From an uncultured Bdellovibrionales bacterium (GTDB lineage Bacteria; Bdellovibrionota; Bdellovibrionia; Bdellovibrionales; Bdellovibrionaceae), in NCBI GenBank assembly GCA_903926205.1, contig CAIYID010000085.1, positions 1-64,000 on the forward strand: a stretch of DNA of 64,000 bases. Reading direction: 5' to 3'. Below the pieces are notes generated by a model. It saw nothing but the letters and a program-made list of their open reading frames with translations, was not told the DNA's origin and did no database searches. Shown in pieces: positions 27,072 through 38,110 of this stretch. A program made the translations under genes and the position numbers. Each line of letters starts with the position of its first letter. The first letter of the stretch is position 1.

Positions 27072-28970
27072 TTATGTTGGAACTAGTTGCTGAGTCCATT
27101 GCCTGATCTTCATCAAAAGATGATCTGCCATTGGACCAAATTGCACTCCATAAGCTTGATCATTATTATTCCAAACAATTCGTCCCATCACTTGAATGGA
27201 ATCTGACTTCCCTGGATCCGAAATTTGCAATGTAATCAACTCACCCTTAGATAAATTCATATCTGCCAAGAAGGAAACCCCTCCCTCACTGATTGTTGAG
27301 AGACGGCCCAATAATTCTTCTCCGTCACGCAGAAGTTTCACTTCTGAATTCATGTGGAATCGCTCAAATCTTCGTCCTTCAGGGGTTACCCAACGACTTC
27401 GAACAACACTCCAGGCAAACAAGGGTAATAACAACAAAGCTAGTATCGACCCCAATACATCGGAACCCATTCCTCCGGAGCCACCACCTCTTGACCAGAA
27501 AATTTTTGATAAGGCTCCTGCTGAAATTGTTCCACAACCCATGCTTTGCGGCGAACGCGAAGTATTGTCGACAGGAGACACTTCCATATACACTGGTTGA
27601 AAGGACTGACTACTAACTGAAGAAATAGCGTTTTGAACCGTCGTCAGTGCATTAACTCTTCCACTTGTTGAAACGTAGTTTGCCAATCCAGAAACAACAT
27701 CCACTGACTGCGTAATAATTTGTCGAACCTGGTAACCGGTCAACTGCGGTGCTTCTCTGAGCACTTGAGCCGCTAAGCCCGCAACAAAAGGTGCAGCCAT
27801 ACTTGTCCCAGAGAGATAAGCAAAAGAATTTCCAGGATAAAGACTTAAAATAGAAACCCCTGGCGCCGCCACATGAACCGTTGATCGGCCATAAGAAGAG
27901 AAGCTTGCCAAGACATCATAATTATCAGTAGCGGCAACAGAAAGTTGACTCGGAATTGAAAGATTTGCGGGGTAGAGAGGACTACTGTCATCATTACTCG
28001 CATAATTTCCTGCTGCCGAGGCAATAAACAGTCCATGATTATAAGCATAGGTCAAAGCATCATTGAGCGACTGAGCATAGCCGCTACCACCCCATGAGTT
28101 ATTAATCACTTTTGCGCCATTCGCAATGGCATAATAAATCGCTGAAACAGCTGCGGCGGTCGTTCCTGTGCCGCTCGAGTCCATGAATTTCAATGGCATA
28201 ATTTTAATTTTGGAAGTGGACAAAGTCGCCGCTAAAATGTTCTGTCCGATGCCTAAAACAATTCCAGAGACATGAGTTCCATGGCCATTGTCGTCCATTG
28301 GATTATTTGTCGAAGAAGCAAAGTTCCAACCATGAACATCATCGATAAAACCATTACCATCATCATCAATTCCGTTACTGGGAATTTCACTGCTATTTGT
28401 CCAAACTCCCGAAGTGCTCGTCATTACATAGTGATTATAATCTAACCCGGTATCCAGAACGGCCACGATCACTGAATTTGGGCTTGTGGCAGAAGACCAA
28501 GACTGCGCCACTTTAACTGGAGCAGAATCTTGAGAATAAGTGGCACTGCCTCCTGAACTCATAATTTGAGTCTGTTCTCCTGATAAAATCTGAGCTTCAG
28601 TTTCTGAAGTCTGGGATAAATGAATCACATAATTTGGTTCAACATATTCAACACTCGGATCCAATCTTAATTCATCCATTAGAACTTTTCGTGAGGAGCG
28701 ACCAGTCATTTTTATATGATGAATATTCATGCCTGGCATTGAATGATGAGACTTCGCTCGTCCGCGCATGTGTTTAAAAACTTTGGAGGTGTGTTGATCT
28801 CCAAACTGCCCTTTAATTTTCACTATGAACTCACCAGGAACAGTTTCTGGCGTCACAACTACTCCCCCCGAGGAACCACTAACTTGAGCGAAGGATTGGC
28901 TGGGCAAAATGAGAGCCCCGAAAACCCCAGACAAAAGAATTGTTATGGCAAAGCCTGATCGTATTGTCAT
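27072..28970 (-). CDS. Subtilisin-like serine protease with membrane helix and C-terminal PilZ domain
   Basis: A 632-residue fusion. Residues 1-29 are a signal peptide. Residues 45-120 look like an inhibitor_I9 propeptide, ending at VEYVEPNYVIHL. Residues 150-450 are a peptidase S8 domain with the catalytic triad D173 (VAVLDTGLD), H230 (NGHGTHVSG) and S390 (LSGTSMAAP), and the oxyanion asparagine in ASAAGN. A glycine-rich stretch (496-502) leads into a hydrophobic helix (about 504-524) and then arginines. Residues 532-632 resemble a PilZ domain: R533xxxR537 (RRFER), then STISEGGVSF in place of the usual (D/N)xSxxG, and VQFGPM near the end. If the protease is periplasmic, the PilZ part would lie in the cytoplasm and could sense cyclic-di-GMP, with the caveat that the D/N position is a threonine. 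Confidence 0.88.
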   Translation of the reverse strand: MTIRSGFAITILLSGVFGALILPSQSFAQVSGSSGGVVVTPETVPGEFIVKIKGQFGDQHTSKVFKHMRGRAKSHHSMPGMNIHHIKMTGRSSRKVLMDELRLDPSVEYVEPNYVIHLSQTSETEAQILSGEQTQIMSSGGSATYSQDSAPVKVAQSWSSATSPNSVIVAVLDTGLDYNHYVMTSTSGVWTNSSEIPSNGIDDDGNGFIDDVHGWNFASSTNNPMDDNGHGTHVSGIVLGIGQNILAATLSTSKIKIMPLKFMDSSGTGTTAAAVSAIYYAIANGAKVINNSWGGSGYAQSLNDALTYAYNHGLFIASAAGNYASNDDSSPLYPANLSIPSQLSVAATDNYDVLASFSSYGRSTVHVAAPGVSILSLYPGNSFAYLSGTSMAAPFVAGLAAQVLREAPQLTGYQVRQIITQSVDVVSGLANYVSTSGRVNALTTVQNAISSVSSQSFQPVYMEVSPVDNTSRSPQSMGCGTISAGALSKIFWSRGGGSGGMGSDVLGSILALLLLPLFAWSVVRSRWVTPEGRRFERFHMNSEVKLLRDGEELLGRLSTISEGGVSFLADMNLSKGELITLQISDPGKSDSIQVMGRIVWNNNDQAYGVQFGPMADHLLMKIRQWTQQLVPT

Positions 28971-29103
28971 AGTCCTATTCTATCGGATGAAAGTCGTGAT
29001 TCTTGAAGCCCTTGGCAAAAATTCTCATTTTAGAACACTATTTTTGTTTCATTCTCAGAATGTATCCTTAGACTTAGCTGTTCTTTTTTTTTACAATCAA
29101 TTG

Positions 29104-29715
29104 ATGACATCACTTGGAAAAATTTTTTTTCGCGGCCTGATTACTATTTTACCCATCGCGATCACCATTTATATTTTATATTCAGCAATAGTCATTCTTG
29201 ATGGAATGCTGGGCGTGGTCCTTCGACAAATTCTTCCGACCTATATTCCAGGATTGGGATTAGCGACGATCATTTTCTTTACTTTTTTGTTTGGTCTTAT
29301 GCTCAATAATTTAGTGATTGAAAAATTTCTTTCCTTCGCCGAAAAAAAATTATTAGATGTTCCACTCATCCGTGCCGTGTATTCGCCACTCAGAGATTTG
29401 ATGAATCTCTTTTCTAAAAAAAGCGAGAAAAATCCTCAGCAAGTGGTTTTTGTACAAATGAGTCAATTGGGGCATCTTCAATTGGGACTTATCACCCGTG
29501 AAAGCTTCGAAGAGCTTGATCTTGGTGACAAAACTATCGATAAGGTGGCAGTTTATTTCCCCTTCAGTTATGCCTTGGGCGGCAACACTCTTTTGATTCC
29601 GAAGTCTCAAGTCACTCATGTCAATTTGCCAATTGAGAAAGCAATGAGCCTGGCCATCACCGGCTGGGTGAAGGCTGAAAAAACCAACGAAGATTCGTCA
29701 AATTCTCAGAGCTAA
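29104..29715 (+). CDS. DUF502 membrane protein
   Basis: A 203-residue inner-membrane protein of the DUF502 family, with two N-terminal membrane helices (GLITILPIAITIYILYSAIV and LATIIFFTFLFGLMLNNLVI) and a conserved soluble part containing PLIRAVYSPLRDLMNLF and VYFPFSYALGGNTLLIPKSQ. Function is unknown; family members often sit in envelope-related clusters. The frame is open far upstream, but ATG 29104 gives the usual family length. There is no Shine-Dalgarno site, while TACAAT (29092-29097) lies 6 bases before the ATG, so the mRNA may be leaderless. Confidence 0.87.
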   Translation: MTSLGKIFFRGLITILPIAITIYILYSAIVILDGMLGVVLRQILPTYIPGLGLATIIFFTFLFGLMLNNLVIEKFLSFAEKKLLDVPLIRAVYSPLRDLMNLFSKKSEKNPQQVVFVQMSQLGHLQLGLITRESFEELDLGDKTIDKVAVYFPFSYALGGNTLLIPKSQVTHVNLPIEKAMSLAITGWVKAEKTNEDSSNSQS

Positions 29716-37295: not shown

Positions 37296-38015
37296 TTATT
37301 TTCGTGGAATGTAGGATTTAGTTTTTGTTCTGGCGATTTCTTCATTCACGAGTTTGCACGCAGACTCATTCAAATTCAAAAACTCCAGTCCAAGGCTCGC
37401 GGGTGATTTATTATCAGTGTCGTACTGAATCCAACGAACAATCCCCGTGAAAACACTTGAATCCGCAAGAGAAAAAGTCACCGCATCTTGAGCTCGGATT
37501 TCTGAAAAATTTCCCCTGATAAACATCCCACCAAGACCAATAGAAATAAGACTTTTAGATAAAAGTTCAGCAAAAGTACCTGTGACTGGTAATTTTTTTA
37601 TTGTCGCGATCTTGACGGCCTGACTCCAGCGCTGCTGAGAATCTAATAAAGCTCGAGATAAATTTTCCATCATGGGTCCAAGATTAAAGGGCTTGTAGAC
37701 AAAACCCTCTATGCCCATATCGAAGGCTTCGGCGGGAGCCACATCGGCAAAACCCGTCACTAAGAACATCACTGGGCTCGTGCCTTCTTGCCCTTTGATA
37801 TTTTTTGCAAGAGTTAGCCCATCTCCACCAGGCATCCGAATATCAGAAATAATCGCATCGAACTTTTGTGCTTTAGCCAAAAGAAGAGCTTGCTGTCCGT
37901 TCTCGGCTTCGGACACAGTCGCTCCCGCAAACTCTAATTCATCGCGAAGGATTTCTCTCAAATCAGGTTCATCATCCACGACAAGAATGTTTTTTTCAGA
38001 AAACAAACCACTCAT
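37296..38015 (-). CDS. Response regulator with C-terminal PilZ-like domain
   Basis: A 239-residue protein with a CheY-like receiver domain (about 7-125) containing VVDDEPD, the phosphorylated D58 in ISDIRMPG, the conserved threonine in LVTGFAD and the lysine in VYKPF. The C-terminal part (about 150-235) is PilZ-like: SIGLGGMFIRG stands where DxSxxGGMF is expected, and LGLEFLNL is the usual end. The RxxxR cyclic-di-GMP motif is missing, so it may bind no cyclic-di-GMP. ATG 38015 has AAGGA 10 bases upstream; GTG 38024 is too close to it. The gene diverges from an OmpR-type regulator gene. Confidence 0.87.
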   Translation of the reverse strand: MSGLFSEKNILVVDDEPDLREILRDELEFAGATVSEAENGQQALLLAKAQKFDAIISDIRMPGGDGLTLAKNIKGQEGTSPVMFLVTGFADVAPAEAFDMGIEGFVYKPFNLGPMMENLSRALLDSQQRWSQAVKIATIKKLPVTGTFAELLSKSLISIGLGGMFIRGNFSEIRAQDAVTFSLADSSVFTGIVRWIQYDTDNKSPASLGLEFLNLNESACKLVNEEIARTKTKSYIPRK

Positions 38016-38110
38016 TGCTAACACGTCCTTTTAAATTAAATAATTCCCTCAGTCGAGAACCTCAAAACTCTACTCACTCAACTATATCGGCAGATCTAAG
38101 TCTAAGCCTT

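Follow-up and report, generated by a model that had tools for sequence, protein, structure and literature searches.

Within the window, the whole stretch of 64,000 nucleotides that was analyzed, the open reading frame at 27072-28970 on the minus strand was confirmed; it encodes 632 aa plus stop (the S8-PilZ protein). The preliminary description as a secreted S8 protease fused to a PilZ domain across a membrane helix was borne out (Pfam S8, 1.8e-48; PilZ, 5.1e-16; helix, residues 503-527), and all domains of the protein scored above the curated Pfam cut-offs. The following features were assigned.

27072..28970, minus strand: S8-tag-PilZ gene, 632 aa; the ORF recurs in other genomes
28884..28970, minus strand: predicted Sec-type signal peptide, residues 1-29 (MTIRSGFAITILLSGVFGALILPSQSFAQ); cleavage site placed by eye, helix 4-26 in the model
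28632..28844, minus strand: fervidolysin-type propeptide, residues 43-113 (Pfam PF22148, Fervidolysin_NPro-like, 3.2e-5, over the cut-off)
27702..28475, minus strand: S8 catalytic domain, residues 166-423 (Pfam PF00082, 1.8e-48)
27531..27539, minus strand: G478-C479-G480, signature of the sorting-like tag (ortholog conservation)
27465..27530, minus strand: variable Gly/Ser-rich linker of the tag, residues 481-502 (low pLDDT)
27390..27464, minus strand: membrane helix of the tag, residues 503-527, followed by basic residues (AlphaFold2 model and alignment)
27390-27551, minus strand: match to the tag profile (tag profile search)
27090..27374, minus strand: PilZ domain, predicted cytoplasmic, residues 533-627 (Pfam, 5.1e-16; fold match)
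27360..27374, minus strand: RxxxR (R533, R537; alignment)
27279..27296, minus strand: TISEGG (559-564), at the position of (D/N)xSxxG; the first residue is T, S or C throughout the family

The fusion is not an artefact of chance, assembly or reading frame, because over 100 genomes contain the same open frame, at about 600-700 aa. The AlphaFold2 model (46 orthologs in the input; mean pLDDT 85) contained a signal helix (residues 4-26), a confident propeptide and S8 domain, a low-confidence linker (467-502), the helix at 503-527 and a confident PilZ barrel. By sequence, the nearest solved structure to the S8 domain was deseasin MCP-01 (PDB, 2.2e-66).

Conservation was assessed in an alignment of 46 orthologs from ten families. 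The S8 triad that had been described as complete (D173, H230 and S390) was unchanged in 46/46, as was the oxyanion residue N322, and the protease is predicted from its sequence to be exported with its catalytic residues complete. R533, R537, G563, G564, W600, G608 and F611 were likewise invariant in these orthologs, which reach distant families of the class. Between the S8 and PilZ domains, conservation was about 44-50% in the linker, 39% in the helix and 99% in the GCG signature; G478, C479 and P516 were unchanged in all 46 orthologs and G480 in 45 of them. C479 was the sole Cys of the exported part in 35/46. The preliminary description had recorded a Gly-rich stretch and a helix in this region; both are present, but the tripartite tag with its invariant Cys and helix Pro had been missed.

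The PilZ match scored 59.3 bits (cut-off 22.5) and was the strongest of 12 PilZ matches in the source genome, so that the failure of the PilZ profile, which would have told against the preliminary description, did not occur. When the C-terminal part was searched alone, the top fold matches were c-di-GMP complexes of Alg44 (Foldseek, 5.6e-7). The structure prediction proposed earlier for this region gave a PilZ fold, with a Z of 15.7 over 101 residues to 4rt1 (Alg44 PilZ-c-di-GMP), and this structural match excludes a false positive of the profile. The RxxxR motif was present as described, and both of its arginines were unchanged in 46/46 orthologs. Threonine in the first place of (D/N)xSxxG was also as described (T559): the orthologs carry T (26), S (16) or C (4), and the D or N of this c-di-GMP-binding PilZ motif was found in none of the 46. 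Since the first place is T, S or C, never D/N, in all 46 orthologs, the departure is a family trait and not a quirk of a single sequence. The SxxG part of the motif is kept (S561 in 45/46, G564 in 46/46). Because a complete S8 domain is joined across one helix to a real PilZ domain with invariant arginines, cytoplasmic control of the exported protease via PilZ is plausible. Elsewhere in the window, 8-9 kb from the S8-PilZ gene, a gene at 37296-38024 (minus strand) encodes a response regulator receiver domain and a weak PilZ-like domain (22.2 bits against the PilZ cut-off of 22.5).

In 12 genomes of several families, a gene for a PpiD/SurA-like chaperone directly precedes the S8-PilZ gene in the same orientation and adjoins, divergently, mreC-mreD-PBP2. 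These genomes include other orders of the class, and the source family is not among them (loci of the upstream gene: L068, L073, L075-L081 and L130-L132). An operon or shared transcript with the ppiD-like gene received no support from the gaps of about 150-400 bases. In the source family, the PpiD/SurA-like neighbourhood is absent and the S8-PilZ gene is divergent from a DUF502 gene. In the window, this DUF502 membrane protein gene is listed at 28909-29715 (plus strand) with a start that overlaps the S8-PilZ gene; its true start is likely near 29104, leaving a divergent gap of about 130 bases. Taken together, the neighbourhood points to envelope biology and to nothing more specific.

A full-length search recovered the S8-PilZ architecture from most genomes of the order at 39-64% identity. 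With a tag-helix-PilZ profile, one copy per genome was found in about 97 of 106 good genomes of the class, which comprises Bdellovibrio relatives, usually at E <1e-30, and 119 of 144 class genomes of all qualities were positive; the genomes lacking it include most of the smallest (1.2-2.1 Mb). A profile search of the remaining phylum returned PilZ-only proteins, in frames of <370 aa, and no S8-PilZ architecture. Beyond the phylum, the contig search comprised one single-sequence query, and its match was one Bdellovibrionota locus (MAG). The S8-tag-PilZ architecture is genuine and defines the class. A maximum-likelihood tree of S8 domains united S8-PilZ and tag-only rows in one group (91/82) apart from the other S8 paralogs. 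Six S8 relatives in this clade have no detectable PilZ domain, five of which end in the tag and one in a degenerate PilZ-like tail, and the six occupy five places within the group. The simplest reading of this placement is one ancestral S8-tag-PilZ gene from which PilZ would have been lost repeatedly while the tag was retained, indicating that the jobs of tag and PilZ are separable.

The tag motif consists of GCG(L/T)(V/I), a linker, a helix with Pro and an R/K end. Four PilZ-less S8 relatives end in a GGC(G/A)-linker-helix-R/K tail, and a profile of S8 tails alone matched the ends of unrelated proteins (15 genomes). When a widened profile was run over 107 genomes and the ORFs at its matches were read, the tag stood at the very end of closed frames. 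The carriers were S8 proteins and matrixin M10 proteases, gingipain-like C25 peptidases (1,499-2,551 aa), LPMO-like proteins, one fn3 protein (1,128 aa) and a family whose members have about 530 aa. The Cys and the helix Pro were invariant in a 28-row alignment of carriers, and the refined profile was positive in 90 of 107 class genomes against 2 of 135 other genomes of the phylum. The tag appears, on these sequence patterns, to be a class-specific sorting signal that curated NCBIfam models do not cover. A general sorting machine in the source genome is uncertain, because the S8-PilZ protein was the only tag carrier found there.

Several of the terminal-tag carriers have features of their own. 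Four (L167, L168, L171 and L180) are LPMO_10-like or SCE4755-like with a predicted mature N-terminal His (AHA/HIRITP), and possibly represent surface copper enzymes of predatory bacteria. Three are very large (L164, L172 and L178; 1,499-2,551 aa), of which L164 and L178 have gingipain-like C25 domains. In the family of about 530 aa (L177, L184, L185 and L186), two scanned members gave no Pfam match, and L185 showed weak similarity to AgmC of myxobacterial gliding.

Candidate processing enzymes were also sought. PF02517 (CPBP, the myxosortase family) was not found in the source genome or in most genomes with the tag, and was present in 44 of 107 class genomes; it occurred in 10 of 24 genomes with terminal tags, showing no enrichment. 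MrtX (NF040593) had no match in the source genome and none over the cut-off in 17 genomes. A myxosortase was set aside as the partner of the tag on these two grounds. Rhomboids were present in every class genome examined, hence their presence does not discriminate, and a rhomboid partner was likewise set aside. Four rhomboids scanned fell far below the rhombosortase cut-off (TIGR03902), and the two of the source genome scored 40.7 and 29 bits against 84. In one genome (G119, contig C9; L050 and L207), a rhomboid gene adjoins, in convergent orientation, an S8 gene that lacks PilZ and carries a tag variant, GGCA; the two possibly form an enzyme-client pair, and the rhomboid looks GlpG-like. A T2SS secretin was present in the source genome (1e-176).

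Our preferred reading, to which we give a probability of about 0.4, is that the S8-PilZ protein would be a tag-anchored exported precursor, with c-di-GMP binding by PilZ gating its retention, processing or release. The signal peptide would export the protein, and the MYXO-CTERM-like tripartite tag (GCG, helix and basic residues) would hold it in the inner membrane, with the subtilisin domain on the periplasmic and the PilZ domain on the cytoplasmic side. The PilZ domain behind the tag would bind c-di-GMP or a related dinucleotide, and its binding state would determine the fate of the precursor. The domains and their order across the membrane, the single copy throughout the class, the invariant residues and the recurrence of the tag on unrelated secreted proteins are established by the analysis, whereas we infer processing of the tag, dinucleotide binding by PilZ and gating of sorting by that binding. 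A more specific form, which we offer tentatively, is a sorting signal under second-messenger control, in which c-di-GMP, through the PilZ domain behind a class-specific Cys tag, would time release of the protease from the inner membrane by an enzyme that is neither a recognized myxosortase nor a rhombosortase. Because the same tag ends unrelated secreted proteins, the likely mechanism changes from that of the preliminary description, in which c-di-GMP could set the activity or location of the protease.

The single helix joining both domains, the co-conservation of the PilZ arginines and the triad in 46/46 orthologs and the single copy across the class would also suit a one-piece transmembrane receptor-protease that is never cut. 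In such a protein, c-di-GMP on PilZ would shift the position or access of the subtilisin domain, following the logic of LapD/LapG in a single chain, and the Cys would be a stabilizing lipid or disulfide site. We consider this unlikely, since the helix is preceded by a long, variable linker with low model confidence, a poor conduit for a conformational signal that must travel along a single helix; moreover, the same Cys-helix-basic tail occurs on proteins without a cytoplasmic domain, and S8 relatives retain it after PilZ loss. Another reading makes the PilZ domain a c-di-GMP-blind positioning or partner-binding module that parks the membrane-tagged protease at, for example, the pole or the growth machinery. 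The T, S or C at the first (D/N)xSxxG place in every member, the loss of PilZ in several lineages and the PpiD/SurA-like and mreC-mreD-PBP2 neighbourhood in 12 genomes of other families are consistent with it. However, the source family has DUF502 in place of that neighbourhood, c-di-GMP complexes head the fold matches, and SxGG is invariant together with R533 and R537, the residues by which c-di-GMP is held in known complexes. The positioning module seems slightly less likely to us than the one-piece protease, and both are serious competitors of the preferred reading.

The tail could finally be a generic membrane anchor, its Gly-Cys and helix Pro shared by common descent or convergence and not as a sorting signal. 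The searches for PF02517, MrtX and a rhomboid or rhombosortase, which returned no processing enzyme, and the one carrier found in the source genome are in accord with such an anchor. Nevertheless, it is very improbable, because at least five unrelated families in the class terminate exactly in this signature, 2/135 genomes are positive elsewhere in the phylum, and one carrier tail passes the MYXO-CTERM model (20.7 against 20).

In B. bacteriovorus, the switch between attack and growth is under c-di-GMP, about 15 PilZ proteins are encoded, and few links from PilZ to an output are known (PMC3271064). A single-copy, class-wide gene that ties a c-di-GMP-type sensor to an exported protease provides a concrete, testable output. 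The clients of the tag (proteases, LPMO-like proteins and gingipain-like peptidases) are what a predator might show on its surface. If the more specific form of the preferred reading is true, Bdellovibrio-type bacteria would have second-messenger-gated sorting as a core feature. Since the arrangement is kept as a single gene across nearly the whole class, control of the placement of a protease from the cell interior may be basic to these predators.

The preliminary description did not know the arrangement as a described class; that it had gone unrecorded is not supported: 'Subt-PilZ, NP_969350.1' of Bdellovibrio bacteriovorus was tabulated, unanalyzed, under 'Signalling' by Tripathi and Sowdhamini in 2008 (PMC2605481). 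NP_969350.1 comes from the same bacterial group, agrees with the S8-PilZ protein in its two domains and their order, and is very probably an ortholog, an assignment set by the domain listing and not by alignment. That listing covers one protein and does not describe the membrane helix, the tag, their conservation or their distribution (PMC2605481); beyond it, we found no functional work on the S8-PilZ pair in the literature. Three pilZ genes, Bd2524, Bd2545 and Bd3100, are down-regulated after the attack phase (PMC2797640), and NP_969350.1 could be one of them. What is new is the sorting-like tag mid-protein with a sensor behind it.

In form, the tag resembles MYXO-CTERM of Myxococcota (TIGR03901), a tripartite tail with an invariant Cys, a helix and a basic end, and alignments of the S8-PilZ tag likewise contain a Cys signature, a helix and a basic cluster. 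The client types also overlap, with matrixins and SCE4755-type proteins on both sides: weak similarity was seen between two matrixin carriers and a family called myxosortase-dependent by NCBI, and between one LPMO-like carrier and the myxobacterial family SCE4755. TIGR03901 matched none of seven S8-PilZ tails, whereas the tail of one C25 carrier passed it (20.7 against the cut-off of 20) and that of another carrier fell just short. The S8-PilZ tag differs in its GCG(L/T)(V/I), helix Pro and longer linker and in that no MrtX was found. It is also internal, with PilZ behind it, whereas MYXO-CTERM is as a rule C-terminal, as are the tags of the other carriers. An internal tag is credible, because rare internal MYXO-CTERM tags are reported from myxobacteria, where sorting tags are stated to function mid-protein (PMC11980579). 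The resemblance is thus one of form, judged from sequence, and membership is not established. GlyGly-CTERM with rhombosortase offers a second parallel, as VesB of Vibrio cholerae is a secreted serine protease with a Gly-rich stretch, a helix and a basic tail that is exported by the T2SS. However, VesB is trypsin-like and the protease here is S8, GlyGly-CTERM is not defined by an invariant Cys such as the S8-PilZ tag has, and the rhomboids here lie far below the rhombosortase cut-off. NCBIfam scans gave no GlyGly-CTERM match, although short models can drop out in the HMMER filters.

For the sensor side, Alg44 and BcsA, which are among the closest solved structures to the PilZ domain here, are also membrane proteins whose PilZ domain faces the cytoplasm. 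Unlike the S8-PilZ protein, they control polysaccharide synthesis, have the canonical PilZ motif and carry no protease. In LapD/LapG, cytoplasmic c-di-GMP decides periplasmic proteolysis; LapD is an EAL receptor with a HAMP domain, and LapG is a separate protease of a different fold. LapD/LapG divides receptor and protease between two proteins, whereas the S8 and PilZ domains here lie in one chain.
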